Assembly (NCBI RefSeq): GCF_013407835.1 | Contig: NZ_JACCBI010000001.1 | Coordinates: forward strand, 1,798,001-1,862,000 | DNA: 64,000 bases | From: Agromyces atrinae | Lineage (GTDB): Bacteria > Actinomycetota > Actinomycetes > Actinomycetales > Microbacteriaceae | Direction: 5' to 3' | Shown here: one piece after another, positions 47,951-64,000 of the stretch | Position numbering within the stretch: the first letter of the stretch is position 1 | How the letters are laid out: every line of letters starts with the position of its first letter | Position numbers and translations under genes: made by a program | Notes under the pieces: model-generated | Database searches by the model: none | The model's input: only the letters and a program-made list of their open reading frames with translations | What the model was told of the DNA's origin: nothing

Positions 47951-48024
47951 CGATCACCTGCTCGCCCCGCATCGTTCCCGAAAGTTCCGAAAAGGGGCTG
48001 CGCCCCCGTAGTCGATCCTGCCAC

Positions 48025-48064
48025 CTCATCCGGCCCCGGTACGACAGAACCGGGGCCGGATGAG
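48025..48064 (-). terminator. Stem-loop after the Gly-rich protein gene
   Basis: Perfect 16-bp stem (48025-48040 with 48049-48064) and an eight-base loop, beginning 20 bases past the stop of the Gly-rich gene and before the EccD-like gene. It probably ends or attenuates transcription of the esx-mycosin operon. Confidence 0.78.
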
Positions 48065-48083
48065 TGGAGAAGAGGATGTCGCT

Positions 48084-49505: not shown

Positions 49506-50821
49506 TCCCCTCCCGAATTGCGTGATGCCGAAGTCGGCGAAGTCGTTTTGCGCCGCGCGAGCACGACGATCGTGATGATGAGCGCGGCGAGCACGACGAG
49601 CCCGATGACCACTCCACCGATCACGAGTGGAGTGATGTCCGCTGCGGGCGTGTCCTCCCCCGCGGTCGGTGCGTCGGAGGCGCTCGGCTGCGGCTGTTCC
49701 GCGTCGTCTGCGAAGTCGACGGCGAGCGGCATCCGGTCACCCGAAGCATCGATCAGTGGGTTCTCGTCAGGATAGGACGACGGGTCGGTCGCCAGCATCG
49801 TCGTGAGCGAGACGATCCCGTAGCCGTAGGCGTCGTCGTAGTTGAGGTCGGGGTTGCCCGTGCCCGTGTTGTGAATGAGCGACTGCAGGATCTGATTGGA
49901 CGTCGCGTCGGGGTACTTCTGCTTCACCAGCCCGATGAACCCCGCGGTGACGGGTGTGGCGAGTGACGTGCCGTCGGCGAGTACCGGCACGTCCCAGTCG
50001 TCGGTCGCGTCCCCGCCGTACCAGAGCATTCCCAGTCCGGGGCCGGCCACGGTCACGCGTGAGAAGCTGTTCGTCACGCCGTCGGTCGTCTGCACGGTCG
50101 CGTCCGCCCCGATGGCGTTGACGGCGACGACGCTATTGGCACGGCCCGGCCAGATCTCTTCGAAGTCCTCGACGAGGGTGTTCGGTACGCCGGAGACGAT
50201 GATCACGCCTTCGCGCTGCGCGCGGAGGATCACGTCGTCGGCACCGGTACCGCCGCTGCCGCCGAGTGAGATCGAGATGATGTCTGCCCCGTCGTCGATC
50301 GCTTCCTCCATGGCGCGGACGATACTGGCCTGCTTGTCACCGTTCTCATCCAGGCATTCGATGCCGGAGTTGTCGAAACCCGAACCATCCTCGGGGACGT
50401 CGATAGCAGCCGTGTAGAAGAGATACTTCGCATCGGGCGCGATACCGGTCACGCCCGGGTTGCCGCCGGCACCGACACCGTTTCCCGCGAGGAGCGCGAG
50501 CACATTCGTGCCGTGCGACGCGGTCAACGCATCCGACGACGTCGCCGGCACGGCCTCTCCGTCGACGTAGCAGAAGGACGGCTCGCGCACGGTGATGTCG
50601 GCGTCAGCGAGAGCGGGGAGCCCGGTGTAGAGAGGCGTGTCGATGACGGCGATCGTGAGACCTTCGCCCGTGAGTCCGGCGTCCCATGCCGCGGGCACCT
50701 TGAACGCGTCGATGTACCACAAGCCGTCGTCCACCGAGGCGGCCGCAGCGGCCGAGGCGGGAAGAGCAACGAGGGCAGCAGCGGCGAGCACCGCTGCCCA
50801 GCGACGGCCGGGACGACTCAC
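49502..50821 (-). CDS. mycP: Mycosin-type subtilisin-like serine protease of the T7SS
   Basis: A 439-residue protein with a signal peptide (about 1-28), an S8 protease domain and a C-terminal helix (about 400-425). Catalytic residues: Asp in 'IAVIDTPL' (about 60), His in 'ASHGTNVLAL' (about 102) and Ser in 'LADGTSLATPV' (about 286). Membrane-anchored mycosins are essential ESX components. The GTG start at 50821 overlaps the upstream small gene by four bases. It lies in the same operon as the WXG100 pair, while a second mycosin-like gene follows eccB on the other strand. Confidence 0.92.
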   Translation of the reverse strand: MSRPGRRWAAVLAAAALVALPASAAAAASVDDGLWYIDAFKVPAAWDAGLTGEGLTIAVIDTPLYTGLPALADADITVREPSFCYVDGEAVPATSSDALTASHGTNVLALLAGNGVGAGGNPGVTGIAPDAKYLFYTAAIDVPEDGSGFDNSGIECLDENGDKQASIVRAMEEAIDDGADIISISLGGSGGTGADDVILRAQREGVIIVSGVPNTLVEDFEEIWPGRANSVVAVNAIGADATVQTTDGVTNSFSRVTVAGPGLGMLWYGGDATDDWDVPVLADGTSLATPVTAGFIGLVKQKYPDATSNQILQSLIHNTGTGNPDLNYDDAYGYGIVSLTTMLATDPSSYPDENPLIDASGDRMPLAVDFADDAEQPQPSASDAPTAGEDTPAADITPLVIGGVVIGLVVLAALIITIVVLARRKTTSPTSASRNSGGE

Positions 50822-51195
50822 GCGATGACCTGACCGGTCTTCGGGTTGTTCGCGCCCAGAGCGCGATCGGCCGGCGTGACGACGACGTCGGGGATCGAAT
50901 CGAGGAAGGTGAGGAGCTGGTTCGCCTCGTCGGCGAGAGTCTCGTCCTTCTCGAGCAACGCGGCGACGGTCGCGCGAATGTCCTCGTCGGAGGCACGCAG
51001 CTGAGCAGCGACGGCGCGAAGAGCGGCCTTGACCGACGTCGCGGTCGCGCTCACTTCGGCGCGGAACGGTGACGTGACCCCCACGCCCGTGCCCTGGCTC
51101 GATACCTCGCCGGGCGTCGGAAGGCTGCTGGAGCCTTCGATCAGATCGTTGAGTCCACTGACGACATCATCCATCATCACGTTGATGAGAGCCAT
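50818..51195 (-). CDS. Small helical T7SS-locus protein, function unknown
   Basis: A 125-residue protein with no helix long enough to span a membrane. Its middle (about residues 40-95, 'ATATSVKAALRAVAAQLRAS') is an amphipathic helical hairpin like ESX-secreted or ESX-associated proteins (EspC/WXG class), but a WxG turn is missing. Its position after the WXG100 pair, with a four-base overlap to mycP, makes a substrate, chaperone or pilot role likely. I do not recognise a named family with certainty. Confidence 0.65.
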   Translation of the reverse strand: MALINVMMDDVVSGLNDLIEGSSSLPTPGEVSSQGTGVGVTSPFRAEVSATATSVKAALRAVAAQLRASDEDIRATVAALLEKDETLADEANQLLTFLDSIPDVVVTPADRALGANNPKTGQVIA

Positions 51196-51246
51196 GCTGC
51201 CTACTCCTGAGTTCTCGGTTTCCGGCGGCGGTCTTCCGCCGACGAC

Positions 51247-51282
51247 GCCTTATGCCCGGTCGTCACCGACCGGGCATAAGGC
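51247..51282 (-). terminator. Perfect stem-loop after the WXG100 genes
   Basis: A 16-bp perfect stem (51247-51262 with 51267-51282) and a four-base loop, 12 bases past the second WXG100 stop. A smaller hairpin CGGCGG/CCGCCG follows at 51226-51241. They probably protect or partially terminate the esx message, making these two proteins the most abundant products of the operon. Confidence 0.78.
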
Positions 51283-51294
51283 GCAGGGGGATTG

Positions 51295-51585
51295 CTAGAG
51301 CGCGAAGCGTCCTGCGGACGACTTGTCGCTCTGAACGTACTGCGAGGCGATCTCTTCGGTCTTGCCCGAGATCTGCTGCAGCAGCTGCTGCAGCTCGGCG
51401 AGCGACTTGTTCCACTGCGCCTGAGCGACGTCGTAGGACTGCTGAGCGTCACCACCCCATGCGGAGCGGAGCTTGCCGACCTCCGACTCGAGGCGGTCGA
51501 GCTCGGCACGAATGCCCTGGGCTCCACCGCGAATCTGACCGGCGAGCGCCTGGACCTGCTCCGGACGAACTGACATCGACTGCAT
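51295..51585 (-). CDS. WXG100-family secreted protein
   Basis: A 96-residue ESAT-6-like protein: two helices joined by the WxG turn in 'LRSAWGGDAQQSYDVAQ' (about residues 39-55). WXG100 proteins form four-helix dimers and are exported by EccC. The ATG has AAGGAG seven bases upstream. It ends 'SSAGRFAL' without an evident YxxxD/E motif after the second helix ('ASQYVQSDKS' is the closest), so the export signal may be supplied by this 'YVQSD' or by its partner. Confidence 0.92.
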   Translation of the reverse strand: MQSMSVRPEQVQALAGQIRGGAQGIRAELDRLESEVGKLRSAWGGDAQQSYDVAQAQWNKSLAELQQLLQQISGKTEEIASQYVQSDKSSAGRFAL

Positions 51586-51616
51586 GCTGAACTCCTTCTC
51601 TCGTCTTCTCGAAAAC

Positions 51617-51934
51617 CTACGCGCCGGACATCATCGAGCCGAGGCCCGAGATGGTCGACTGGTGCTGCTCTTCGGTCGCAGCCTGGTCGCGCTCCGTGCC
51701 CGAGAGCGCGTCTTCGAGAGTGACGAGCACCTCGTTGAGCTTGCGGGTCTGCTCGTCCCACCGGGTCATCAGCGTCGTGAACGACACGGCGGCCGCACCC
51801 GACCAGTAGCCGCGCAGCTGCTCGATCTCGCCGCGAACCTTCTTGACCTGGCCATCGATGCCGGTCTTCGTCTCACGAACCGCCTGTGCGCCCTTGCGCA
51901 GGGCGCCTTCTTCAGCGGAAATGACTTCTGCCAT
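51617..51934 (-). CDS. WXG100-family secreted protein
   Basis: A 105-residue protein, partner of the following WXG100 gene. The turn is WSG, in 'LRGYWSGAAAVSFTTLMTRW' (about residues 41-60). GAGGAG lies about seven bases before the ATG. First gene of the leftward operon, expressed from the promoter at 52027-52055. The pair probably forms an antiparallel dimer like EsxA/EsxB. Confidence 0.92.
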   Translation of the reverse strand: MAEVISAEEGALRKGAQAVRETKTGIDGQVKKVRGEIEQLRGYWSGAAAVSFTTLMTRWDEQTRKLNEVLVTLEDALSGTERDQAATEEQHQSTISGLGSMMSGA

Positions 51935-52026
51935 GACTCACTCCTCTCAATCGTCTGGAAAAGACGTCTTGAGGGGAACGGACCGACATCCGGCCGCGAT
52001 TTGCCCCCCAAATGCGTCACCTCCTA

Positions 52027-52055
52027 CAAAGTAGAGGACGAATCCGATCTCGGCA
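52027..52055 (-). promoter_or_regulatory. Promoter of the esx operon
   Basis: On the minus strand TTGCCG (52050-52055) and TACTTT (52027-52032) are 17 bases apart. Transcription would start near 52020, about 85 bases before the first WXG100 gene. An imperfect inverted repeat surrounds the -10. Confidence 0.6.
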
Positions 52056-52107
52056 ATTCCCGGTGGACAAACCTGTATGAATCCTGCACGCGCGCGGGCC
52101 CGCTCGA

Positions 52108-52136
52108 TTCAGATCGTCGGAGGAATCCTCTAGAGT
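52108..52136 (+). promoter_or_regulatory. Possible promoter of eccD-eccB
   Basis: TTCAGA (52108-52113) and TAGAGT (52131-52136) are 17 bases apart on the plus strand, before eccD. The -35 is weak. With the opposite promoter it makes a divergent control region of 253 bp for the two halves of the T7SS locus. Confidence 0.45.
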
Positions 52137-52187
52137 GAAACGCGATCGTCGGCCGTGCCGAGCGATCGATTCGAGTGGGGAAGAATC

Positions 52188-53525
52188 ATGAGCCAGACCG
52201 CGATCGCGGCGGGGGCGGTCCTTCGGCTGTCCGTCGTCAGCGAAGACCGACGTCTCGATGTCGCCGTGCCCGCGCAGATTCCGCTCGTCGAGCTGCTGCC
52301 CGGCTTCGCACGGAGCCTCGGGCTGCTCGACCCGACGCTCGCCCATGGCGGATACGCGCTCCATCGCGCCGACGGCGGCGTCCTCGATCCCGCGCGCGGC
52401 GCCGGCGCTCAGGGCGTCCACGACGGCGAACTCCTGACCCTCGTCCGCGGCGGCCTCCTCGCAGAAGCGCGCGTCTACGACGACGTCGTCGAGGCCGTCA
52501 TCGACGCGACCAAGGAGCAGCACGACTCCTGGACCCCGAACGACAGCTCGCGCACGGCTCTCGCCATCAGCGTGACCTTCCTCGCCCTCTGCGCCCTGCT
52601 CCTCCTCGGCACCGGTCGCGAGCTCGGCCTCTCGGCGATCCTCGCCGCCGCCGGCGCGGTCGTGCTCGTCGCGACATCCGCCGTGCTGGGCCGTCTGCGC
52701 CAGCCCGAGGCGAGTGCCGCTCTCGGGCTCGCTGCCGCGACCTACGGCGGCATCGCCGGCTTCCTCGCCGTTCCCGGCGACGTGATCTGGGGTTGGCCTC
52801 TCGCCGCGGCGGGCGCTGGTCTCATCGTCGTCGGCGGGATCAGCCTCGCGTTCACGCCGCAGAAGCCCGAGATCCACCTCGTACCGGTCGTGCTCGGCGC
52901 GAGCATCGGCCTGACGGCGACGATCACGGCGGGCCTCGGCCTCGACCCCGTCGGCCCGTACGCCATCATGCTCGCCGTGACGGCGACGCTCGCGAACGGT
53001 CTGCCCTGGCTCGCGCTCAGCACGACCCGCATCCGCGTGGTCTCGGCTCAGACCGACGCCGAGATCTTCGCCGCTCCCGACCCCATCGACGCCGACGAGG
53101 TCAAGCGCCGCGCGGCGGCCGGAGCCCGCGTGCTCGTCGCGCTGCGCATGGCCCTCGGGCTCGCGGCTCTCGCGGCGACCCCGCTCATCGCCGCGAACGG
53201 CGTCACGGGCGCGCTGCTCACGACCCTCGCGTTCGTCGGCATGATGTTCCAGTCGCGCCAGACCTACGCTCGCGCGGGCGTCCTCACGCTCATGGCCCTC
53301 GGCGCCCTCGGCCTCGCGGCGACGGGGCTCACCGTCATCCTGACCCAGCCCGATCTCCGCATCGGCCTGCTCATCGTGCTCCTCGTGGCGACGGCGCTCC
53401 TCGTCGGCCTCACCCTGCTGTCGCCTCGCGCTCGTCTCCGTATCGGCCGCGTCGCCGACACGGTCGAGGTCATCGCGCTCGCCCTCTTGCTGCCCCTCGG
53501 GGTCGCGACCGCCGGGCTCGCCTGA
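52188..53525 (+). CDS. eccD: Type VII secretion integral membrane protein EccD
   Basis: A 445-residue protein: ubiquitin-like N-terminal domain (about residues 10-95, 'DVAVPAQIPLVELLPGFARS' and 'LLTLVRGGLL'), then about 11 transmembrane helices. It forms the membrane vestibule of the ESX core complex with EccB and EccC. The ATG at 52188 has GGGGAAG upstream; an in-frame start 11 codons earlier is less likely. eccB follows after three bases. The other EccD-like gene (46583-47950) has the same plan on the opposite strand. Confidence 0.9.
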   Translation: MSQTAIAAGAVLRLSVVSEDRRLDVAVPAQIPLVELLPGFARSLGLLDPTLAHGGYALHRADGGVLDPARGAGAQGVHDGELLTLVRGGLLAEARVYDDVVEAVIDATKEQHDSWTPNDSSRTALAISVTFLALCALLLLGTGRELGLSAILAAAGAVVLVATSAVLGRLRQPEASAALGLAAATYGGIAGFLAVPGDVIWGWPLAAAGAGLIVVGGISLAFTPQKPEIHLVPVVLGASIGLTATITAGLGLDPVGPYAIMLAVTATLANGLPWLALSTTRIRVVSAQTDAEIFAAPDPIDADEVKRRAAAGARVLVALRMALGLAALAATPLIAANGVTGALLTTLAFVGMMFQSRQTYARAGVLTLMALGALGLAATGLTVILTQPDLRIGLLIVLLVATALLVGLTLLSPRARLRIGRVADTVEVIALALLLPLGVATAGLA

Positions 53526-53528
53526 GCG

Positions 53529-54854
53529 ATGGCGACCAAGAAAGATCTCATCGAGGCGCAGGGCTTCAGCCGGCGCCGTCTGCTGTCGGCGTTCACGGGC
53601 GGTGCACCGGGCGGCAAAGAACTCGACCCCGCAAAGCCCCTCCGGGCCGTCATCGCCGGCATCGCGCTGACCGCTGCTGTCATCCTCGGCGGCGTGTTCT
53701 ACGGACTCATCCGCCCGGGGCTGCCCCAGGGCTGGGAGAACAACCGGCTCGTGCTCGCGAGCGACACGGGCGCCCGCTACCTCTCGGTCGAAGGCGTGCT
53801 CCACCCCGTCATCAACACGGCGAGTGCGCGACTCCTCATTCCCGCGGGCGACTTCACGGTCGTGAGCACCGACCAGGGCACGCTCGCCGGCATCGAGATC
53901 GGCGACACGATCGGAATCGTGGGCGCGCCCGACGATCTGCCGGCTCCCGACGACCTCATCAACTCGGGCTGGACCGCGTGCGTCTCGGGCGACGCCCAGA
54001 CCGCCGTCTCGATCTCCGCGGCACCCGACGCGACGCCCGCCGCGGGCGACGGCGCCGTCGTCTCGCGTGACGGCGATCTCTTCGTGGTCTCCGGAGGCTT
54101 CCGCTATGCGGTCGCCGAAGACGAGGCGAACGCGGTGCTGCGAGCCGTGGGCCTCGGCGCCGCGAGCCCCGTCGCCGTCGAGGGGCGCTGGCTCAACCTC
54201 TTCGAGCCCGGCGACGAGCTCGAAGCCATCGAGCTCTCCGACGCCGGCGCGAGCCTCCGCGGCACCGACCTCACCGTCGGCACCGTCGTGCACGCCCAGG
54301 GCACCCCCGACGACGAGCGCTACGTCGTCCTGAAGTCGCGCGAGCTCGCACCGCTCTCGCCCCTGGCCTACCAGCTCTACCTCCTCGGAACCGGAGCGGA
54401 TGCCGAGGAGCGCGAGGTCAGCCCCGCCGAGATCGCGAACCTCCCGACGGCGTCGACGCCGGCCGGCGGCACCGGTTGGCCGAGCGCCGTGCTCACCGAG
54501 CTCGACGCCGAGACCGTGCCGTGCGCCGTGCTCGGCGACGAACTCGGTGTCGCGACGACCTCGCTCGGATCGGCTCCGAGCGCCACCATCGACTCCCCCG
54601 GTGTCACCGTCGACATCGGAGCGGGCGCACTCGTCCAGGCCGGCGCCGCCGCGCCGCGCGTGCTCCTCGACGAGTCGGGCACCGCGTTCCCCATCCCCGG
54701 CACGAACACCGACCTCATCGAACGCCTCGGTTATGCGGCGGATGACGTCGGCCCCGTCATCCCCTCGTGGATCGACTTCTTCGCCGCCGGCCCGAGCCTC
54801 ACCCCCGAGGCCGCCGGCCAGAGCCCGAGCACCGACGCGTCGAGCTCACGATGA
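53529..54854 (+). CDS. eccB: Type VII secretion protein EccB
   Basis: A 441-residue protein with a short cytoplasmic N-terminus ('TKKDLIEAQGFSRRRLLSAF', family hallmark), one helix (about residues 40-62) and a large extracytoplasmic domain of repeated propeller-like units. EccB caps the ESX core on the outer face. The N-terminal 'EAQGFSRRR' and 'PGLPQGWENNRLVLASDTGA' region are as in other EccB proteins. It overlaps the following mycosin-like gene by four bases (ATGA). Confidence 0.93.
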   Translation: MATKKDLIEAQGFSRRRLLSAFTGGAPGGKELDPAKPLRAVIAGIALTAAVILGGVFYGLIRPGLPQGWENNRLVLASDTGARYLSVEGVLHPVINTASARLLIPAGDFTVVSTDQGTLAGIEIGDTIGIVGAPDDLPAPDDLINSGWTACVSGDAQTAVSISAAPDATPAAGDGAVVSRDGDLFVVSGGFRYAVAEDEANAVLRAVGLGAASPVAVEGRWLNLFEPGDELEAIELSDAGASLRGTDLTVGTVVHAQGTPDDERYVVLKSRELAPLSPLAYQLYLLGTGADAEEREVSPAEIANLPTASTPAGGTGWPSAVLTELDAETVPCAVLGDELGVATTSLGSAPSATIDSPGVTVDIGAGALVQAGAAAPRVLLDESGTAFPIPGTNTDLIERLGYAADDVGPVIPSWIDFFAAGPSLTPEAAGQSPSTDASSSR

Positions 54855-56164
54855 GGTTCGCGCGACTCGCTGCGAGTGCGGCCTTCGGCGCGGTGGCTCT
54901 CGCCGGCTTCATCGCGGCGCCGGCACCGACGACCGTCGCGATCGCGGCCTCGAACGAATGCGCGCCCGGCAACATCGCGTTCTCCCCCGACGCGCCCCTC
55001 GCGTTCCCGCTCCTGCAGACGGATGCCGCGTGGGCGCGCAGCACGGGCGCGGGCATCGTCGTCGCCGTCGTCGACTCGGGTATCGACGGCTCCAACCCGC
55101 ACCTGAAGAACGCCGTGGTCGGCGGTATCGACCTCGTGGGCGACGGCGAACGCGCCGATGGTCTGAGCGACCCGCAGGGCCATGGCACGGCCATCGCCGG
55201 GCAGATCGCCGCGCGTGCCGTCGACGGTTCGGGGGTTATCGGCCTCGCGCCCGATGCGAAGGTCATGCCCGTGCGCGTCTTCCGCGGAACCGACGACGAA
55301 TCGGTGCGAAACGGCTTCGGACCGACGACCGAACGCCTCGCGACCGGCATCCGCTACGCCGCCGAGAACGGCGCGACGATCATCAACGTCTCGCTGAGCG
55401 ACTACGCCGACTCGGGCGCACTGCGTGACGCCGTCGACTTCGCCCACTCGCGCGGCAGCCTCGTCGTCGCGAGCGCCGGCAACCGCGCGACGAGCGAGGA
55501 CACCACCGACGGCCCGCGCTACCCCGCGGCGTACGATGCGGCGCTCGCGGTCACGGCGACCGACAACAGCGGTGTGGTGACGGATGACTCGATCCACGGC
55601 CCGCACGTCGATGTCGCCGCTCCCGGCGCCGAGGTCGCGACGTCGGCGACGGGTGCCGGGGACTGCATCTACGCGTCCGATGCGCCGTCGTCGAGCTTCG
55701 CGACGGGGTACACGAGCGCGGCTGCGGCACTCGTCGCCGCCGCCCACCCCGGCGAGGGCCCCGACGAGTGGGCCTACCGGCTCGAGGCGACCGCCGCGCG
55801 CACCGACCCCGACCGCCGCGACGACGTCAACGGCTGGGGGCTCATCCAGCCCGCGAGTGCGATCACGCTGCTGCCCGACGCGACGACGCGCGGCCCCGAG
55901 GGACCGTTCTTCGACACCTCGGCGAGTGCCGTGCGCCCGGGCGGCGCCGTCGTCACCCCGAACTCCGACCCGTCGCCCTTCGTGCTGACGGCCGAGGCGA
56001 CCGCGCTCCTGACCGTCGCGGGGGCTGCCGCCCTCGGCACGATCGGAACCGTCATCATCCTGCGTCGTCGCCGACAGACCGAGCGCGAGACCGTCGCTGC
56101 GGCGGTCGCCGCGCCCACGGGTCTCGGCCTCCTCGAGCGCGAGTCGGTCGACGAGTACGAGTAG
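54851..56164 (+). CDS. Second mycosin-like S8 serine protease
   Basis: A 437-residue protein with signal peptide (about 1-33), S8 domain and a C-terminal helix (about 383-405). Catalytic residues: Asp in 'VAVVDSGIDG' (about 74), His in 'GHGTAIAGQIA' (about 113) and Ser in 'PSSSFATGYTSAAAAL' (about 283). The serine motif departs from the usual GTSxAxP, with Ser-Ser-Phe-Ala-Thr-Gly instead. It lies directly after eccB, and with the GTG-start mycP on the other strand gives the locus two proteases. It may mature the substrates or control the core. Confidence 0.87.
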   Translation: MRFARLAASAAFGAVALAGFIAAPAPTTVAIAASNECAPGNIAFSPDAPLAFPLLQTDAAWARSTGAGIVVAVVDSGIDGSNPHLKNAVVGGIDLVGDGERADGLSDPQGHGTAIAGQIAARAVDGSGVIGLAPDAKVMPVRVFRGTDDESVRNGFGPTTERLATGIRYAAENGATIINVSLSDYADSGALRDAVDFAHSRGSLVVASAGNRATSEDTTDGPRYPAAYDAALAVTATDNSGVVTDDSIHGPHVDVAAPGAEVATSATGAGDCIYASDAPSSSFATGYTSAAAALVAAAHPGEGPDEWAYRLEATAARTDPDRRDDVNGWGLIQPASAITLLPDATTRGPEGPFFDTSASAVRPGGAVVTPNSDPSPFVLTAEATALLTVAGAAALGTIGTVIILRRRRQTERETVAAAVAAPTGLGLLERESVDEYE

Positions 56165-56534
56165 TCGCAGCTCTCTGCTGCCTTGTCCCTGCTCACTGCC
56201 TGCTCCTGACCCCTGCCTGCTCCCTGGCCTCTGCTCCCTGGCCCCTGCCTGCTCCTGACCTCTCCCTGGCTGCCTGGCTCCCTGGCTCCCTGGCCCCTAC
56301 CTTCCGCGCCCCGCTCCTCGCTCTCCCCTCTCTGTCCGTTACAGCGGAGATTCCGACGACGCGCCGACCAGGGATGCCTCGTCAGCGGTGTGTCGCGCTG
56401 AGTTCCGCCAGAACGGCACGCAGGCGCGGCGCGGCTGGCAGATGCGGCAAGCGGGTGCGGGGTGGATGCCGCGGGCGGATGCCGCGGGTGCGGTGTGGGG
56501 CCGCGGGCGCGGCATTGGAACTGAGGGCGGGGCG
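56165..56534. repeat. 370-bp convergent gap with degenerate CTGCCTGCTCC/CTCCCTGG repeats
   Basis: No gene is visible. From about 56170 to 56299 the plus strand is a run of short, related pyrimidine-rich units (CTGCCTGCTCCTGACC, CTCCCTGGCC and variants) repeated many times, with almost no A. It is unlike the surrounding sequence. Family D palindrome copy 2 follows at 56333-56419, then GC-rich sequence with small GATGCCGCGGG repeats (about 56465-56490). Confidence 0.6.
56333..56419. repeat. 87-bp palindrome, family D copy 2
   Basis: Ends TGTCCGTTACAGCGGA and TCCGCCAGAACGGCAC are imperfectly complementary, and its reverse complement aligns with 41142-41229 through GCGGAAC, GCGACAC and GGCGCGTCG blocks. 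It lies between convergent genes. Confidence 0.65.
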
Positions 56535-57416
56535 TCAGACGGCGAGAGCGGTGACGACGAGGGCCGCGAGACCCACGACCGAGACGACGCTCGCGAGAGC
56601 GACGGCGCCGAGCGCGATGAGACCGACGCGACGTGAGCGACGCTCGACCGAGGGCAGGCTGCCGTCGACGACGCGCGTCGCGGGCGGAGCGGGGGCGAGC
56701 CCGACGGGCGGGGCCGCGGGCTCGGGAACCTCACGCGGCGCGTACGGGTCGATCGCTCCCGGTCCTGGTGCGACGACCGACGATCGCAGCAGCGCCGGGT
56801 CGATGGGAGCGGGCGTGAGGGCGCGTCGACCGCGACGCGTGAGGAGCCGCAGAGCGGGTGCCGACGACTTCTTGACGGGGCGGTCGCCGTCGCTCGTCGG
56901 AGCCGGTGCCGACGTGTCGGGCGCATCCGCGGCATCCCGCTTCGCGCGTCGACCGACGACGATCGTGCCGTCCTCGGTGGTCGGAGCATCGGCCGGCGCT
57001 CGATCGCGATCCACGACGATGGTGCCGTCATCGGCCACGGGAGCATCCCGGTCGACGACGATGGTCCCGTCATCCACGGGAGCGGGCGCACCTCGGTCGA
57101 CCACGACCGTGCCCTCGTCCACCGGCCCAGCACGATCTACGACGACAGTGCCCTCATCCACGGGCGCACTTCGATCAACGACGACCGTGCCCTCATCCAC
57201 CGGCCCAGCACGATCGACGACGACCGTGCCCTCATCCACCGGCGCAGCACGGTCGACGACGACCGTGCCCTCATCCACCGGCGCAGGACGGTCGACGACG
57301 ACGGTCCCCTCGTCGACATCCGTCTCGCGGTCGACCACGACGGTGCCGTCGACGTCGTCGTCGGGGCTGTCGACGGTCTCCGGAGACTCGGGCTGGGAGG
57401 ATCGATCGGTCGCCAT
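56535..57416 (-). CDS. Tail-anchored protein with ten GTVVVDR threonine motifs
   Basis: A 293-residue acidic protein. Residues 1-155 are low-complexity and contain ten copies of a motif of the form acidic-acidic-Gly-Thr-(Val/Ile)-Val-Val-Asp-Arg, mostly at a period of 13 residues. A Pro/Ala-rich stretch follows, and one helix (about 267-290) lies at the C-terminus. I do not recognise the family. The motif also occurs once in the FHA protein of the same operon ('ESTVVVDRRPK'), just before its FHA domain. Threonines flanked by acidic residues on one side and Val on the other suit kinase and FHA binding, so I infer a multivalent phosphothreonine scaffold. It starts two bases after the phosphatase. 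Confidence 0.7.
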   Translation of the reverse strand: MATDRSSQPESPETVDSPDDDVDGTVVVDRETDVDEGTVVVDRPAPVDEGTVVVDRAAPVDEGTVVVDRAGPVDEGTVVVDRSAPVDEGTVVVDRAGPVDEGTVVVDRGAPAPVDDGTIVVDRDAPVADDGTIVVDRDRAPADAPTTEDGTIVVGRRAKRDAADAPDTSAPAPTSDGDRPVKKSSAPALRLLTRRGRRALTPAPIDPALLRSSVVAPGPGAIDPYAPREVPEPAAPPVGLAPAPPATRVVDGSLPSVERRSRRVGLIALGAVALASVVSVVGLAALVVTALAV

Positions 57417-57418
57417 CG

Positions 57419-58255
57419 TCAGACCACCACGCGCACGGGGATCGTCGTGTCGTCGATCATCGAGTCGCCGAGGCCGAGGCTCGCGAATCGCAGGCTTGTC
57501 GTGTCGTCGTTCGTGAGACGTCCGCCTCCCGAGACGACGTCGACGACGATGACCGTGATGTTGTCGCGTCCGCCGGCCTGGTTCGCCCGCTGCACGAGCG
57601 CCTCGGCCGCCGACTCGGGGCGACCGCTCATCGTGAGCGTCGCACGGATCGCCTCGTCGCTGACCTCCGACGTGAGTCCGTCGGAGCAGATGAGCAGACG
57701 CTCGCCGTCGGTGACGGGCATGAGCCAGCTGTCGGCGGTCGAATCGGGGGCGCCGATCGCCCGCGTGATGACGTTGCGTCGGGCGAAGGTCGCGAGGTCT
57801 TCGGGGCGGAGCGCGCCCTCGTCGACGAGCTCCTGGCCGAGCGAGTGGTCGACGGTGATCTGCTCGAGGTCGCTGCCCGTGTGACGGTAGACGCGCGAGT
57901 CGCCGACGTTGAAGACGAGCCAGTGCGGCAGGCCGTCGTGCTCGACGAGAGCGACTCCCGAGACCGTGCTGCCCGCACCGCGCTTCGTCGTGCCCGAGAC
58001 GACCTCGACGGCGTCATCCGCGGCGGACAGCGCATCGCGCACCTCGTCGAGGGTCGTGATCTCATCGCCGACGACGTGCTCGCGGAACGCGGCGACGACG
58101 GCCTGGCTCGCGAGGTCTCCGGCGTCGTATCCGCCCATGCCGTCGGCGACGAGATAGACGGGCGACTCGGCGAGGAGGGAGTCCTCGTTGGCCTGCCTCT
58201 TCTGGCCTCGATCGGTGACGGCGGCGACGGTCACCACGACGGGGGCGTTCGGCAT
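57419..58255 (-). CDS. PP2C-family Ser/Thr phosphatase
   Basis: A 278-residue cytoplasmic phosphatase with all metal-binding motifs: 'TDRGQKRQANEDS' (about 14-26), 'LVADGMGGYDAGDLAS' (about 35-50), 'FNVGDSRVYRH' (about 115), 'LICSDGLTSEV' (about 190) and 'GGRDNITVIVVD' (about 227-238). It removes phosphate from Ser/Thr, reversing PknB-type kinases. It lies between the FHA protein and the threonine-motif protein with only two-base gaps, so those are its likely substrates. No transmembrane helix is present, unlike mycobacterial PstP. Confidence 0.93.
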   Translation of the reverse strand: MPNAPVVVTVAAVTDRGQKRQANEDSLLAESPVYLVADGMGGYDAGDLASQAVVAAFREHVVGDEITTLDEVRDALSAADDAVEVVSGTTKRGAGSTVSGVALVEHDGLPHWLVFNVGDSRVYRHTGSDLEQITVDHSLGQELVDEGALRPEDLATFARRNVITRAIGAPDSTADSWLMPVTDGERLLICSDGLTSEVSDEAIRATLTMSGRPESAAEALVQRANQAGGRDNITVIVVDVVSGGGRLTNDDTTSLRFASLGLGDSMIDDTTIPVRVVV

Positions 58256-58257
58256 GC

Positions 58258-59781
58258 TCAGTCGTCCTCGCCGTACGTGACGCGCATGCCGACCTCGCCG
58301 AGCACGAAGCGCGACGTCACCTCGATAGGCACGTCGGCCTCGACGAGCGTCTCCTCGCCCGACGCGTCGACCACGAGAACGCCGTTCGTCGAACGGAGGT
58401 CGGTGATGCTCCAGCGACCGTCGTCGAGCTCGAGACGCGCGTGCGTCTTCGACAGGGTGCGGGTCTTGTCGGGAACGGGCAGTCGCTGCTCGCTGGAATC
58501 GGCGGCGGCGGGGTTGCGACCGAGCACGACGCGCGCACCGGTCAGATCGAACGACGTGCCGTCGTCGAGCACGAGCCGCCAGGGGATCTTCGGTCGACGG
58601 TCGACCACGACGGTCGACTCGAAGTCGTCATCCTCGTCGTCCTCGACGGGAGCGGCGGGCGGAGGCGAGGTGATGATCGTCTGGGCGACCGCGAAGTCGA
58701 GGTCCTCCGTGCCGGGTGCGACGGCGGCGGGGTCGGAGGCGAAGAGCGCCTGCATGTTCGACGCGGGCGCCTCGGCGGGCGCGGCCTCGATCGGGGCCTC
58801 GACGGGCGCGGAAGGCGCAGGAGGTGCCGGCGGCGCGGCGACGACCGGTGCGGCGACGGGCTCGGCCGGGGTCGGCGGCGCCGGAGGTGCCGGCGGCTGA
58901 GCGACGATCGGCACGGGAATCGGCTCGGGCAGCGGCGTGGGCGCGAGGAACTCGGGCTCGGGAGCGACGGGCACCGGGGCGGGGATGCGCGCGGGGATCG
59001 GCGGCGGAGGCAGCTCGTCGAATCCGGTGGGGGCCGGGGCCGCGGGGGGCACCGGCGAAGCGACGGGAGGCGCGGGCGGCGCGTCGGTCGGACGCGGCGC
59101 CCACGGGTTGCCCGCGACGGCGGGCGCGGGCGCCGATGCACCGAACGGCGCAGCATCGTCAGCGGGTCGCGCGGCGTATGCGGGCGACGGAATGTAGTTG
59201 CTCACCGAGTCGGAGTACTCCGAGACCGGCGCTCCGGCGTCGGAGTCGGGGCCCGTGTACGGAGGCGGGTAAGCTGCGGCTCCCGCTGCTGCGGGGATCG
59301 CATAGCCCGAGGCATCCCGTGCCGTCGGCGCGCTCTCGGCGAGCGGCCCGGTCGCCCGATCGGCCGCACCGGTCGTCGCCTGAAGACGACCGCGCTCCGG
59401 ATCGGGGTTGGTGCTGCCCCACGCGAGGAGCGTGGCCCACAGCGGCGCGATCAGCACCGCGAGCACCGTGCTGCCCGCGCCACGACCGAAGAGCACGTTG
59501 ATGCGATGCGTCGCGATGACGTACAGGTAGAGCCCGTACAGGTTCACGATCGGGATGAAGAGGAAGACGACCGACCACGCGGGCACACCGCCGCGCGCGA
59601 AGATCTCGGACGTGTTGAGGATCGGCACCCAGCCCTTCCACGACTCCGCCCCGAGGCGCGGGAACAGACGTGAGAGCGCGAGCGCGTACCACACGTAGAT
59701 TCCGACGCCGATGAGGCTCGAGATCGCCAGCATCGCGATCACGGCTCCGATCGCGGCGGAGGGGTCGTAGTAGGGATTCAC
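58258..59781 (-). CDS. DUF5684-like membrane protein with long Pro-rich linker and FHA domain
   Basis: A 507-residue protein. The N-terminus has three helices (about residues 10-32, 62-85 and 93-115) with 'RLFPRLGAESWKGWVPILNT', of the DUF5684 type. Residues 120-380 are Pro/Ala-rich. At about 390 comes 'FESTVVVDRRPK', then an FHA domain (about 400-500: 'VVLGRNPAAA', 'LSKTHARLELDD', 'TDLRSTNGVL'). FHA proteins such as GarA/OdhI carry a similar threonine just before the domain and fold onto it after phosphorylation, so self-binding is possible here. GTG start overlaps the upstream gene by four bases; the phosphatase follows. Confidence 0.85.
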   Translation of the reverse strand: MNPYYDPSAAIGAVIAMLAISSLIGVGIYVWYALALSRLFPRLGAESWKGWVPILNTSEIFARGGVPAWSVVFLFIPIVNLYGLYLYVIATHRINVLFGRGAGSTVLAVLIAPLWATLLAWGSTNPDPERGRLQATTGAADRATGPLAESAPTARDASGYAIPAAAGAAAYPPPYTGPDSDAGAPVSEYSDSVSNYIPSPAYAARPADDAAPFGASAPAPAVAGNPWAPRPTDAPPAPPVASPVPPAAPAPTGFDELPPPPIPARIPAPVPVAPEPEFLAPTPLPEPIPVPIVAQPPAPPAPPTPAEPVAAPVVAAPPAPPAPSAPVEAPIEAAPAEAPASNMQALFASDPAAVAPGTEDLDFAVAQTIITSPPPAAPVEDDEDDDFESTVVVDRRPKIPWRLVLDDGTSFDLTGARVVLGRNPAAADSSEQRLPVPDKTRTLSKTHARLELDDGRWSITDLRSTNGVLVVDASGEETLVEADVPIEVTSRFVLGEVGMRVTYGEDD

Positions 59782-62288
59782 GGGGCGATCTCCTTTCGGA
59801 AGACGTCAGGCAGGGAGAACACTCGGGGGCGGGAGCCGGCACGCCGGGTGAACGAGCGGAGCGACAGCGCCGCGCGGACACGACCGCGGAAGCCGGCCGA
59901 CGCGGCGAGCTGCTTGCGCTCGTCGTCGACGAGCTGCCACGCCCACTCGGCGAACTTCTTGGCCGGCGGGTGCTCGGAGAAGACCGCCCGGTCGACGCCC
60001 GCCGCGAGCGAGAGCGCCGCAGCGCGTCCCGACGACTCGGCAGCGAGGATGCGGCTCGGGGTCGACTCGAGGGGAATGCGGTAGTCGGTGTAGAGGTCGA
60101 CGAGTTCCTCCCACGCGGCCACGACCCGCACCTCGGTGTCGGGCGACCCGCGTCGCACGGAGCGGCGGATGCGCTTCGCGAAGAAGAGCGTCGCGAACGG
60201 CAGGAGGAGGAGCAGGAGCGCTCCCGTGCCGATGAGCACCCAGCGCATGATCGGCCAGAACGCGTCGAGCGCCTCGGACGGGCGATCGTCGGCGACGACC
60301 TCCTCATCGCTCGAATCGCTCTGCGCCTGGGGCGGATCGACGGCTTCGCTCGTGACCTCGTCGGGCACGGTCGGGTTCTCGGGCAGCTGCTCGCCCTCGG
60401 TGATCTCGGTCGGCAGCATGGCGAACTGCGGGGTCGCATCGATCGCCGTCCACTCGCCGCCCGCGGGCCGAGCCTCGATCCAGGCGGACATCGAGCCGCC
60501 CGTGCAGGCGTCGTCGCACGCGGGGATGCCGGGGACCTCCTCAGCACCCGCGAGTCGGACGCCGACGACGACGCGCGACTCGAAGCCCCAGTGCCGCGCG
60601 AGGAGGGCCGCTGCCGCCGCGAACTGCTCGTCGTCGCCGACGCCCGAGACGAGCATGTCCTCGTCCGCGCCGGGCCCCGCACGACGCTGCTGGTCGATCA
60701 TCGAGGTGAAGAGCGTCTCGAGACGGGCGCGCGAATGGCCCGCGTAGCTCGACAGGAATGCGTAGCGACCGGAGGCCGAGAGCGCGGCGACCCATGCCGA
60801 CGACGCGTCGTCCTCGAGCAGACCGTGGCTCAGGTAGCCGCGGGCGCGCAGCCGATCGATGAGTTCCTCGAACCCGGCTCCCGTGCGCGGCAGCTCTTGC
60901 AGGGCCGCCCACTCGGTGAGCGCGGGGTAGAGCTCGGGATCGATCGTCGACTCGCCGCCGGTGGCCGTCGCGAAGGACGTATCCGGCACGGGTTCGTCGG
61001 CCAGCACCGTGTACGAGTCACCCGGTACGAGCCCGTGACCGTCATCCGTCGGCGCGACGTCGACCGCTCCCCCGCCGTCGGGGGCGATGTGGAAGCCATC
61101 GGCGAGGGCCTCGGCGCGCGGGCCTCCGAACGACGGGGCGGCGGCGAGAAGCGTCGGGGCGGGCACCCAGATGCCGCCGAAGCCCTCACCGACCTGCACG
61201 TCGAGGTCGATGCGGTCGGACCCGGGGCCGGCGCTCCGCGGCAGGCGCGAGAATCGCGTGTCGGCTCCGACGTGGAAGACCTCGCCGTCGTACTCGTCGA
61301 GCACGGCGATCGGCAGTCGCCCGACACGATCGACGTCGCCTGTGATGCTGAAGGTCTCGGTGTCGAAGCTCGTCGACTGGAACCACGACCGGTAACCGCT
61401 CAGCGGGCTCGGCTGCTGCTGCACGACGACGTGCGGGTCGATGGTGTCACGGAGCGCGCCGCGTTCTCCGAGCGATGCGGCGGCGGGTGCGACGACGATG
61501 CCGCCGACGAGCGCGATCACGACGATGCCGACGGCGAGGGCGTTGCGGCGCACGGCGATCGCGATCGACTCGCCGCCCTGACGGACCGTGCCGGCACGCG
61601 CACGGGCGAGCGCTCGCGCACGCGTGAGACGGGCGCGGCCGAGCAGCCAGACGACCGCGGCGAGGAGGCTCAGCACACCGAGCCCGAGTTCGCGCGGGGC
61701 GGGCACCTCGACGCCGAGGACCGTGATCGGCGCGCTCGTCTCGCTCGATCCGAAGGCGATGCCGAAGACCGTCATGAGGAGCACGGCGAGGGCCGCGAGC
61801 GGCGTCCACCGGTTCTCGCGCGTGATGAGCGCGCTCGCGACGATCGAGCCGACGAAGACCACGATGAAGAACGGCACGAGCACCGCCTGGTACTCGCCGA
61901 CGGGAAGATCGAGGGTCAGCAGCTGCTTCCAGCCGACGACGATGCCGACGAGGCCGTCGAGGATGCCGCGGAAGAACGCACCGGGCGACGAGAACGCCGA
62001 AGGGATCGCGACGGGCACCACGGCGACGACGTAGAGCACGAAGGCAACGAGACCCGTCGTGAGGGCACCGGTCAGCCCGGTCCACTTGAGGTAGCGCGAC
62101 AGCACGATCGTGCCCGCACCGAGCAGCAGTCCGACGGCCGCGACGAGGATCATCCGCGGCGACTGGTAGACCGGCCAGGCCGCGAACGCCGCGAGCACCA
62201 CACCGACGACGAGGTACGCGAGACCCCAGATCACGATGATCTGGTCGTCGCTCGGGCGCACGGGCGCGGCTCGGCGGCGGCGGCTCAT
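59778..62288 (-). CDS. TgpA-like transglutaminase-fold membrane protein, probably inactive
   Basis: An 836-residue protein: about six N-terminal helices, an extracytoplasmic domain with a transglutaminase-like core (about 480-620), one more helix near 705, and a cytoplasmic DUF4129-like C-terminus. In the core the usual catalytic Cys is replaced: the stretch is 'VGDDEQFAAAAALLARHWGF' (about 549), and the His position is 'GSMSAWIEARPAGGEW' (about 600). Only the Asp in 'AIDATPQ' (about 616) is kept. So it looks like a structural or binding protein. It overlaps DUF58 and FHA genes by four bases on each side; MoxR-DUF58-TgpA is a common conserved trio. Confidence 0.85.
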   Translation of the reverse strand: MSRRRRAAPVRPSDDQIIVIWGLAYLVVGVVLAAFAAWPVYQSPRMILVAAVGLLLGAGTIVLSRYLKWTGLTGALTTGLVAFVLYVVAVVPVAIPSAFSSPGAFFRGILDGLVGIVVGWKQLLTLDLPVGEYQAVLVPFFIVVFVGSIVASALITRENRWTPLAALAVLLMTVFGIAFGSSETSAPITVLGVEVPAPRELGLGVLSLLAAVVWLLGRARLTRARALARARAGTVRQGGESIAIAVRRNALAVGIVVIALVGGIVVAPAAASLGERGALRDTIDPHVVVQQQPSPLSGYRSWFQSTSFDTETFSITGDVDRVGRLPIAVLDEYDGEVFHVGADTRFSRLPRSAGPGSDRIDLDVQVGEGFGGIWVPAPTLLAAAPSFGGPRAEALADGFHIAPDGGGAVDVAPTDDGHGLVPGDSYTVLADEPVPDTSFATATGGESTIDPELYPALTEWAALQELPRTGAGFEELIDRLRARGYLSHGLLEDDASSAWVAALSASGRYAFLSSYAGHSRARLETLFTSMIDQQRRAGPGADEDMLVSGVGDDEQFAAAAALLARHWGFESRVVVGVRLAGAEEVPGIPACDDACTGGSMSAWIEARPAGGEWTAIDATPQFAMLPTEITEGEQLPENPTVPDEVTSEAVDPPQAQSDSSDEEVVADDRPSEALDAFWPIMRWVLIGTGALLLLLLPFATLFFAKRIRRSVRRGSPDTEVRVVAAWEELVDLYTDYRIPLESTPSRILAAESSGRAAALSLAAGVDRAVFSEHPPAKKFAEWAWQLVDDERKQLAASAGFRGRVRAALSLRSFTRRAGSRPRVFSLPDVFRKEIAP

Positions 62289-63655
62289 CGGATCACTCCG
62301 CGGGCGAGGAGCTGGGTGAGGTCTCCGAGGGCACCGATCGTGACGACCGTGATCTCACGCGTCGCCTTGATCGTGGGCTCGGCTCCCGGTTCGCAGCGCA
62401 CGGCGATCGTCTCGATGCCCTGCGGCAGCGCGATGGCCGCCTGTCGAAGCCTCATGAGCGGCATCCGTTGGCCCGTGACGAGGAAGGCGATCGAGAGGTC
62501 GGAGAACGACTGGGCCGTGAGGTTGGTGACGGCCTCGAGTCGCATGACGTGCCCGCCCGACTCGATCGCGGCCATGCCGTCGAGGAGCGCCTTCGGCGTG
62601 CGCGTCGGCACCGTGCGGATCGACTGCACCGCGTTGCGGCTGAACTCAGGGATCGGCGCGCTCGCGGCGATGAGGACGTCGCGGCCCTCGCGGACCCCCT
62701 GGACACCGAGGGATGCCGCGGCGCTCACGGCCATCTCGAATTCGTCTTCCGTCTCGAACTCCTCGTCGTCGAGGTCGAGGAGGATCGCGATGCGCGCGTG
62801 GCGCGACTCTTCGTACTGGCGCACCATCAGGCGCCCCATCTTCGCGGTCGACTTCCAGTGCACGTGACGCTGCGAGTCGCCGACGACGTACTCGCGCACG
62901 GCGTGGAAGGAGAGGTCGGCGTCGACGAGGGCGTTCGTCGGGGTGCCCTCGAGGTCGCGGATGAGACCGGCGCTCGTCGGCGGGATCGGCACGGTGATGG
63001 GGTGCACGTAGATGCGCTGCACCTCGGGCCAGCTGAGCTCGCGCTTCAGCACGCCGAGCGGGTCGCCGCGCGAGATGGTCATCGGGCCGACATCGATGAC
63101 GCCGCGGCGCTGGGCGGCGATCGTCAGCTCTTCGCGGTGGTGGCCGCCGGCTCGGAGGAGCGGGACGTGCACCTCGACGAGGCCCGCACCGACGGGGATG
63201 TCGACGACGCCCGGGAGCGACACGCGCTCGCCCTTGTTGACGAGGTCGAGGCGACCGCCGACCTCGTTGCCGGCCACGACGCGGTCACGGTCGAGCTGGA
63301 GGTCGAGCCGGTAGTCGTGCGCTCCGATGAGGAACGGCACGCACAGGGCGAGCAGCACGAAGGCGATGCCCGCGACGACCCAGCCCTCGATCCAGCCGAA
63401 GCCGAGGCCCGTGGCGACACCCGCGATGAGCGCGACAGCGAGCAGCAGTCCCGCGGGCGAGACCGTCTCGCGCACCCACGCGACCGAGCGTCGGACGACG
63501 CTCGCCGTTCCCCGCGCGGCGCGCCGGAGGCCGAAGACGGCCCCCGAGACGGCGCCGCGACGGGTCTGCGAATAGCGCGTGACGGTCTCGGCCCGGGTGT
63601 GGGTACCCGTGCCGGCCGTCGTGCGGCTGATCCGCGATTCGGTCTGAAAGCTCAC
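62285..63655 (-). CDS. DUF58-family membrane protein
   Basis: A 456-residue protein with two helices (about residues 65-90 and 95-112) and a C-terminal DUF58 domain (about 200-330) whose core is 'YVVGDSQRHVHWKSTAKMGR' with 'LMVRQYEESRHARIAILLDL' after it, followed by a von-Willebrand-like region. DUF58 proteins occur with MoxR ATPases and are thought to act in envelope assembly or protein maturation, without proof. The GTG start at 63655 overlaps the MoxR stop by four bases; the longer upstream frame is read inside MoxR. Confidence 0.9.
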   Translation of the reverse strand: MSFQTESRISRTTAGTGTHTRAETVTRYSQTRRGAVSGAVFGLRRAARGTASVVRRSVAWVRETVSPAGLLLAVALIAGVATGLGFGWIEGWVVAGIAFVLLALCVPFLIGAHDYRLDLQLDRDRVVAGNEVGGRLDLVNKGERVSLPGVVDIPVGAGLVEVHVPLLRAGGHHREELTIAAQRRGVIDVGPMTISRGDPLGVLKRELSWPEVQRIYVHPITVPIPPTSAGLIRDLEGTPTNALVDADLSFHAVREYVVGDSQRHVHWKSTAKMGRLMVRQYEESRHARIAILLDLDDEEFETEDEFEMAVSAAASLGVQGVREGRDVLIAASAPIPEFSRNAVQSIRTVPTRTPKALLDGMAAIESGGHVMRLEAVTNLTAQSFSDLSIAFLVTGQRMPLMRLRQAAIALPQGIETIAVRCEPGAEPTIKATREITVVTIGALGDLTQLLARGVIR

Positions 63656-64000
63656 GCAGCGCCGTTCTCGCGGGGCGGAGCGACGTCGAGCAGGATCTGG
63701 TTGATGACGGCGATCGCGGTGACGCCGTCGAACTCGGCCTCGGGCTCGAGGACGAGTCGGTGGGCGAGCGCCGGCACGGCCAGCTCGCGGACGTCGTCGG
63801 GGGTGACGAACGTGCGCCCGTGGGCGGCGGCCCACGTCATGACGATGCGCGACAGTGCCAGAGCACCGCGGACGCTCACGCCGAGCCGCACCTCGGTCGC
63901 GCGACGTGTGGCGTCGACGATCCGCATGATGTAGTCGGAGACGAGCGGGTTGACGTAGACGCCGCGCGCCATGTCGGACATCGTGACGATCGTGTCAGTC
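63652..64000 (-). CDS. MoxR-family AAA+ ATPase, N-terminal part beyond window
   Basis: The frame is open to the right edge, so only the C-terminal ~115 residues are present. They are the helical lid domain: 'NPLVSDYIMRIVDATR' and 'LGVSVRGALALSRIVMTWAA', ending 'VTPDDVRELAVPALAHRLVL', all typical of MoxR proteins. MoxR ATPases act as chaperone-like remodelers with DUF58 partners, and here DUF58 follows by a four-base overlap. The Walker motifs lie outside the window. Confidence 0.88.
   Translation of the reverse strand, partial: TDTIVTMSDMARGVYVNPLVSDYIMRIVDATRRATEVRLGVSVRGALALSRIVMTWAAAHGRTFVTPDDVRELAVPALAHRLVLEPEAEFDGVTAIAVINQILLDVAPPRENGAA

Follow-up and report, generated by a model that had tools for sequence, protein, structure and literature searches.

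The array protein and its gene run

The window, that is, the whole stretch of 64,000 nucleotides of Agromyces atrinae DNA that was analysed, carries on its reverse strand an ORF (56535..57416) encoding a 293-amino-acid protein with an acidic N-terminal array, a basic/Pro block and a C-terminal membrane helix. By motif count, ten GT[VI]VV[DG]R repeats occupy residues 24–156 (56949..57347, reverse strand), a region predicted to be disordered. The motif Thr residues are 25, 38, 51, 64, 77, 90, 103, 118, 132 and 151; the spacing is 13 residues six times, then 15, 14 and 19, in agreement with the initial annotation, which put most motifs 13 residues apart. In all ten copies an acidic residue and a Gly directly precede the Thr. 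The same annotation described ten near-identical acidic-acidic motifs ending in (V/I)VVDR. Ten are indeed present, but the acidic pair is found in nine of them (copy 1 has Val at −3), and DR closes nine copies while the tenth ends in GR. The protein had no family match in Pfam or NCBIfam.

Downstream of the array, a juxtamembrane block (residues 200–256; 56649..56819, reverse strand) with the pattern GPGA..Y.PR ... LPSV.RRSRR is conserved in alignment A2 of 31 proteins. It is followed by a C-terminal membrane helix (residues 257–292; 56541..56648, reverse strand) predicted from hydropathy and the structure model. The AlphaFold2 model, built on a 31-sequence alignment, gave a mean pLDDT of 40–48 per block of ten residues in the array region, with no strands there. 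Residues 257–292 formed a confident helix, which backs the C-terminal membrane anchor proposed earlier. The juxtamembrane block had block-mean pLDDT values of 61–89 and may be a partner-binding surface. Since no signal peptide was seen and the basic RRSRR precedes the helix, the array was placed in the cytosol. The predicted topology of the array protein is that of a disordered chain in the cytosol, anchored by one C-terminal membrane helix. A beta-solenoid was ruled out by the motif spacing of 8–55 residues and the disordered model.

The array is real and lies far above chance expectation: T[VI]VVxR occurred ten times in the protein, whereas 20,000 residue shuffles gave 0.0123 on average and 2 at most. 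Three or more acidic-x-Thr-hydrophobic motifs within 150 residues were found in none of the other 514 frames of the window (stop to stop, at least 60 amino acids) and in none of 818 frames from 28 other loci of the same genome (about 90 kb). Across the whole genome, the T[VI]VVxR DNA pattern had 31 matches, made up of the ten array copies, one in the neighbouring FHA gene and 20 scattered singles, and this genome-wide pattern found no second cluster; the reversed pattern matched once. Nineteen of the 20 singles were read. Some lay inside real genes, and two (L014 and L034) had Glu at −2.

The array gene ends a gene run with the order FHA, kinase, giant Ig-like protein, MoxR, DUF58, transglutaminase, FHA, PP2C and array. 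The last four genes are separated by 2 bp gaps or overlap by 4 bp, and terminator and promoter scans found nothing. On the reverse strand of the window lie the PP2C-type phosphatase (57419..58255; PF13672 and PF00481 over cut-off), a 507-amino-acid DUF5684 membrane and FHA protein (58258..59781; PF18936 and PF00498 over cut-off), a transglutaminase-core membrane protein (59778..62288; PF01841) and a DUF58 protein (PF01882). The listed DUF58 frame (62285..63835) overlaps the MoxR gene, so its true start is probably nearer 63650. The C-terminal part of what we take, from its sequence, to be a MoxR-type AAA protein is encoded at 63652..63999 on the same strand, and the gene continues past the window at L010:1652-2617. 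Further upstream on this strand follow the giant Ig-like protein of 2023 residues (L010:2675-8746; Big_9 and cadherin-like domains by Pfam), a Ser/Thr kinase about 7 kb beyond the window (L010:8743-9876) and a third FHA protein (L010:9937-11025). The kinase was outside the view of the initial annotation, and its place in the same gene run as the array strengthens the phosphothreonine reading. Its membrane segment sits right at the C-terminal end and it lacks an outer domain, so any signal from outside would have to be relayed by another protein. The giant protein has an acidic-Thr-hydrophobic stretch of its own, DQGTIVVEDV, before its first Ig domain, where it is expected to be extracellular.

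This gene run resembles the PFNA operon of Bifidobacterium, which consists of pkb2, fn3, aaa-atp, duf58, tgm, prpC, BLGT_RS02790 and fha and forms one transcript in B. longum GT15 (PMC8430577). Both share the order kinase, giant Ig/FN3-type protein, AAA, DUF58 and transglutaminase in one direction, and phosphatase and FHA genes then follow. Unlike the PFNA operon, the window has an added array gene, its FHA gene comes before the PP2C gene, and its FHA protein carries DUF5684. Pfam found no FN3 domain in the giant protein of the window, which has the Big_9 and cadherin-like domains instead; we therefore call the gene run PFNA-like rather than PFNA. At L276, Bifidobacteriaceae-like by gene order and GC and the sole such locus read, the slot before fha holds a different protein and there is no array, so the seventh Bifidobacterium gene was dropped as a candidate array there. 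In this PFNA-like locus (L276:10062-12288, reverse strand) the protein between PP2C and FHA resembles a variant leucine-repeat protein, and the FHA protein has DSTVLSSSF before its domain.

Recurrence of the array and conservation of its motif

Arrays of 2–12 copies were found in a similar setting in many genera of Microbacteriaceae and in one other family. A protein search listed 91 homologues, one of which (P0087) was judged unrelated and removed. In the remaining 90 the copy number by regex was 0–12, differing between species, and the spacing was loose. The initial annotation had proposed a survey of repeat number in relatives; among arrays, it gave 2–12 copies, variable by species. Within the genus, 22 of 60 genomes had an array homologue, and the PP2C gene adjoined it in all 22. 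Profile searches found arrays in at least 25 of 299 genomes of the family and at least 10 of 297 of the order; these are lower bounds, as at most nine candidates were scored per genome, and regions chosen through PP2C contained arrays that these searches had missed.

Among 41 loci chosen through the array, 38 had a PP2C match. L198 and L203 had array and FHA without PP2C, and L209 was probably a false array match, with nothing there. Kinase, giant protein, DUF58 and transglutaminase lay on one strand in 34 of the 35 full-length 20-kb regions of this array-chosen set. The array was close to an FHA gene even where the gene order differed, as in L178 and L237.

To avoid choosing by the array, 40 loci were taken through PP2C matches. 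The layout of the window, assigned by reading as PP2C near transglutaminase and/or DUF5684-FHA with no kinase just downstream, was found in 25 of them (L215 and L219 without an FHA match, L228 and L234 without a transglutaminase match). In 17 of these 25 an array gene with a C-terminal membrane segment was adjacent, with two copies only in L220 and L234. The other eight had no array and retained the FHA and PP2C genes; the kinase lay outside those stretches. None of the 15 loci of other layouts had a separate array, and these too retained kinase, FHA and PP2C genes. A further 20 loci were chosen through the transglutaminase. Arrays were present in 9/9 of family f10 (two with two copies) and in 3/6 of genus g85 (one with two copies); L273–L276 had none, and L272 was borderline and was left uncounted. 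Calls of the two-motif regex at L218, L228, L246, L247, L248 and L250 proved false on reading and were dropped. An alignment scan of genome contigs for PP2C gave at least 80 loci with PP2Cs at most 56% identical. No array was seen beside PP2C among the 80 loci listed, except for array-like acidic-Thr stretches near PP2C in L085 (Cryobacterium, within an FHA-type protein) and L089 (an Aurantimicrobium MAG, in a 224-residue frame).

The motif was kept across array homologues while the spacers diverged. The residue before [VI]3[DE]R was Thr in 363 of 364 motifs of the 90 homologues and Ser in one (289 of 290 Thr after dereplication), counts that are biased towards Thr since the homologues came from a Thr-rich query; overall, these proteins contain about two Ser for every three Thr (T:S 1004:673). 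Twenty-nine arrays reached through PP2C or transglutaminase gave Thr in 108 of 113 and Ser in none, at an overall T:S of 311:262, and here the bias lies in their recognition by a Thr regex. In the same 29 arrays Arg was at +5 in 108 of 125 motifs, Arg not being required by the regex. D or E was at −2 in 89% of 504 motifs by a pattern that required T and R, and V or I was at +3 in all 322 motifs of the form [DE]xT[VI]2x[DE]R. Subtypes varied by clade (TRIVRR, TVLSSRR, TVVTGR, TVMVQR), and different subtypes occupied the same genomic slot across clades. In other clades +1 was often Arg and +3 often Ser, Ala or Thr. Across these diverged motifs Ser almost never took the place of Thr, and Arg at +5 persisted.

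A putative phosphothreonine docking strip

The FHA neighbour carries a TVVVDR motif of its own at 58597..58614 (reverse strand; located by DNA pattern and reading), 31 residues before the GRNP loop, and the earlier remark that the same motif precedes this FHA domain is confirmed. Among the 118 homologues whose loop could be read (of 120 listed), a Thr stood exactly at −31 from the loop in 108 and within −33 to −28 in 115, although the query region contained the motif and so favoured matches that carry it. The FHA core (58369..58530, reverse strand; PF00498) has the usual phosphothreonine-binding residues R, S and N, and R53, S75, H78, T96 and N97 were invariant in alignment A3 of 41 sequences. 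Fold matches ranked an Arabidopsis FHA domain and CEP170 first and included solved structures of OdhI, GarA, FhaA, MDC1 and DgcB, the last together with its own phospho-tail. By fold and by its conserved Arg, Ser and Asn, the domain is predicted to be phosphothreonine-competent. The fold was well predicted, and the motif lies in an acidic tail with a pLDDT of 54–66 by block. A Thr motif placed on a flexible stretch next to the fold is the arrangement of a self-ligand FHA protein.

In the PP2C, D38, G39, D192, G193 and D231, which we take to be catalytic, were invariant in alignment A1 of 13 sequences. Its C-terminal tail DDTTIPVR (57431..57454, reverse strand) is a second conserved acidic-Thr motif, in which T271, P273 and V274 were invariant in A1. 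The form TT[IL]P[VL] was found at 20 of 21 same-genus loci and a stricter form at 25 of 75 loci of all clades; other operon layouts often had [DE]DT[LIV]PR. With this tail the phosphatase may bear a further phospho-dock of its own. In genus g71 (L239, L240, L242) the PP2C has a long C-terminal tail with several acidic-Thr-hydrophobic motifs, which by its sequence looks as if an array had been fused to the phosphatase.

We consider it reasonably probable, from sequence and gene context, that the array is a multivalent phosphothreonine docking strip, whose sites the kinase of the gene run would phosphorylate and the neighbour's FHA domain would then bind. The tie to an FHA protein is supported by comparison: the motif has Thr and not Ser, with acidic residues before it, Arg at +5 and mostly V at +3, the pre-FHA motif is fixed in place, and array and FHA genes lie close together. 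Acidic residues nearby are favoured at mycobacterial phosphosites (PMC6554272). The +3 residue is often a specificity position for FHA domains, and in DgcB V17 at +3 lies in the pocket (PMC6733907). The nearly fixed Thr is what chiefly favours docking over a role as substrate alone. FHA domains prefer phosphothreonine; a kinase alone would accept Ser, and an FHA reader would not.

In this proposal, the tail-anchored kinase would write phosphate on the array motifs, and the FHA domains of the DUF5684-FHA protein would bind them in competition with their own phospho-motif. Phosphorylation of the array would open the FHA proteins and cluster them in the plane of the membrane. The PP2C, with its related tail motif, would erase the marks and may itself dock. 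The cluster might gate or place the MoxR-DUF58-transglutaminase machinery that would serve the giant surface protein; the gating is a guess from gene order. Of the multivalent phosphothreonine scaffold for FHA proteins in the initial annotation, the tie between motif array and FHA protein appears to stand, and the recruitment of an RDD-FHA protein does not (see below). As to its proposed reset by the adjacent phosphatase, PP2C usually adjoins the array but is not obligatory, as the stretches L198, L203, L266 and L271 have no PP2C match though FHA and array are present. Several points count against a docking strip: ten sites would demand a processive or abundant kinase, there are relatives without an array, and single T[VI]VVxR matches are scattered in other genes.

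Judged by sequence, the array does not just repeat the motif that precedes the FHA domain, which also counts against the docking reading. Clades g64 and g30 and genome G169 have A, S or T at +3 of the FHA motif and V in the array, and clade g15 (L237) has the reverse kind of mismatch. A search for strict covariation between the two motifs did not show it (p = 0.06; clade-level 2x2 count 13, 1, 3, 3, sorted by hand with g7, g19, g33, g48 and genome G462 left out as unreadable or mixed). Individual cases do fit it: in g49, Arg at +5 is missing from the FHA motif and from most copies of the array (3/4 copies in L201, 2/3 in L205, 3/4 in L206), and L230 has S or T at +3 in both.

Parts of this scheme are already known. 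The SDT repeats of eukaryotic MDC1 form an array of many phosphosites to which the NBS1 FHA domain binds (PMC8079451), and in Mycobacterium tuberculosis Ser/Thr kinase phosphorylation of the FHA modules of Rv1747, which forms membrane nanoclusters, favours condensates in vitro that PstP reverses (PMC9312465). A multi-phospho FHA dock and phospho-driven FHA condensates are thus not new. The statement of the initial annotation that no such array protein had been described holds for bacteria in the literature searched, on FHA repeats and scaffolds and on the operon set, with few subscription papers covered; it does not hold for eukaryotes, given MDC1. MDC1-NBS1 is like the window in its multi-copy acidic Thr motifs as a dock for an FHA protein, of which the copies alone were observed here. 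It differs in that CK2 makes pSer-Asp-pThr, BRCT also reads the sites, and the sequence is unrelated, nuclear and not operon-encoded. Rv1747 differs in having FHA domains and phosphosites in one transporter, without a repeat array. GarA, OdhI and DgcB resemble the FHA neighbour in the Thr motif of the tail before the FHA fold, with V at +3 in DgcB. Unlike the window, they have one tail motif only.

We know of no separate multi-copy partner in these three systems, and to our knowledge bacterial FHA cases use one or few phosphosites. As a broader and tentative proposal, with a chance we put slightly below even, bacteria may have evolved dedicated tail-anchored phosphothreonine docking arrays of 2–12 sites, each encoded alongside a kinase, an eraser and an FHA reader of its own, which switch two-dimensional FHA clusters in the membrane. 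Their motif code would have diverged by genus (TVVVDR, TRIVRR, TVLSSRR, TVVTGR) and, in one clade, have shifted to the tail of the phosphatase. If true, bacteria would have an equivalent of the multivalent phospho-docks known from DNA repair in eukaryotes, one whose writer, eraser, reader and target are all encoded in a single gene run, compact enough for rebuilding in vitro. Such arrays would also point to a way in which PFNA-like operons might be controlled, and would offer a natural series of copy numbers and motif types for testing multivalency and kinase-FHA specificity.

An alternative is that the array is a phosphate sink or timer, a multi-site decoy titrating kinase and PP2C and setting a threshold, to which FHA docking would be incidental. 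The copy number of 0–12 by regex in the 90 homologues and the loose spacing agree with this, as do the Thr-motif tails on the PP2C itself in L239, L240 and L242. We think it rather unlikely, because the motif recurs at a constant position in the FHA protein, arrays occur near FHA where PP2C was not found (L198, L203, L266, L271), and a mere substrate needs no Thr over Ser. Less probable still is a non-phospho linear motif, by analogy with SUMO-interacting motifs, which add a strand to their partner. The acidic-flanked VVV core could act in this way, and a hydrophobic triplet with acidic flanks is what such a motif would have; the nearly fixed Thr and nearly absent Ser argue against it, as does the lack of strands in the model. 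Moreover, Arg at +1 and Ser, Ala or Thr at +3 elsewhere break the core while Thr and Arg at +5 stay.

The type VII secretion locus and the origin of the repeats

The window also contains an ESX-type T7SS locus (41251-56164) with EccC, two EccD-like proteins, EccB, WXG100-like proteins and two subtilases, where the EccC and WXG100-like assignments are our presumption. The initial annotation had the array recruit the RDD-FHA protein of this locus, and in that way the array might tune the adjacent secretion system. The adjacency is real here. The array was present in all four same-genus genomes with EccB and in 18 of the 56 others, and in G035 and G027 about 28–32 kb separated EccB from the array (in G001 they are on different contigs). 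Elsewhere the adjacency does not hold as a rule: of 60 same-genus genomes, 4 had an EccB match and at least 22 an array, and 18 of the 22 array-bearing genomes had no EccB match. The array thus does not co-occur with the ESX core as a T7SS component should. In addition, no acidic-Thr motif precedes the FHA domain in the sequence of the RDD-FHA protein of the window, whose only TVVV stretch (TVVVAVPRR) ends the RDD part. Recruitment of the RDD-FHA protein, and with it a T7SS scaffold, is therefore highly improbable.

A DNA repeat scan found a 39-bp tandem array with 86% matches. In copies 2–7, the six motif codons showed 40 synonymous and no replacement differences among 90 comparisons, and the spacer codons 22 synonymous and 28 replacement differences among 105. 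Over all ten copies the motif codons had 124 synonymous and 30 replacement differences among 270 (V/I at +1, D/G at +4). This is a pattern of purifying selection on the motif codons, and since codons differ between copies, the array is not a fresh duplication. Neutral tandem-repeat slippage of a low-complexity tail would agree with the tandem DNA array and with a copy number that varies by species, but has next to no probability, being already contradicted by the synonymous-only motif divergence in copies 2–7, by a motif kept in homologues while spacers diverge and by different motif subtypes in the same genomic slot. Degenerate short repeats of the CTCCCTGG type lie at 56196-56302 of the window, between the convergent array and subtilase genes.
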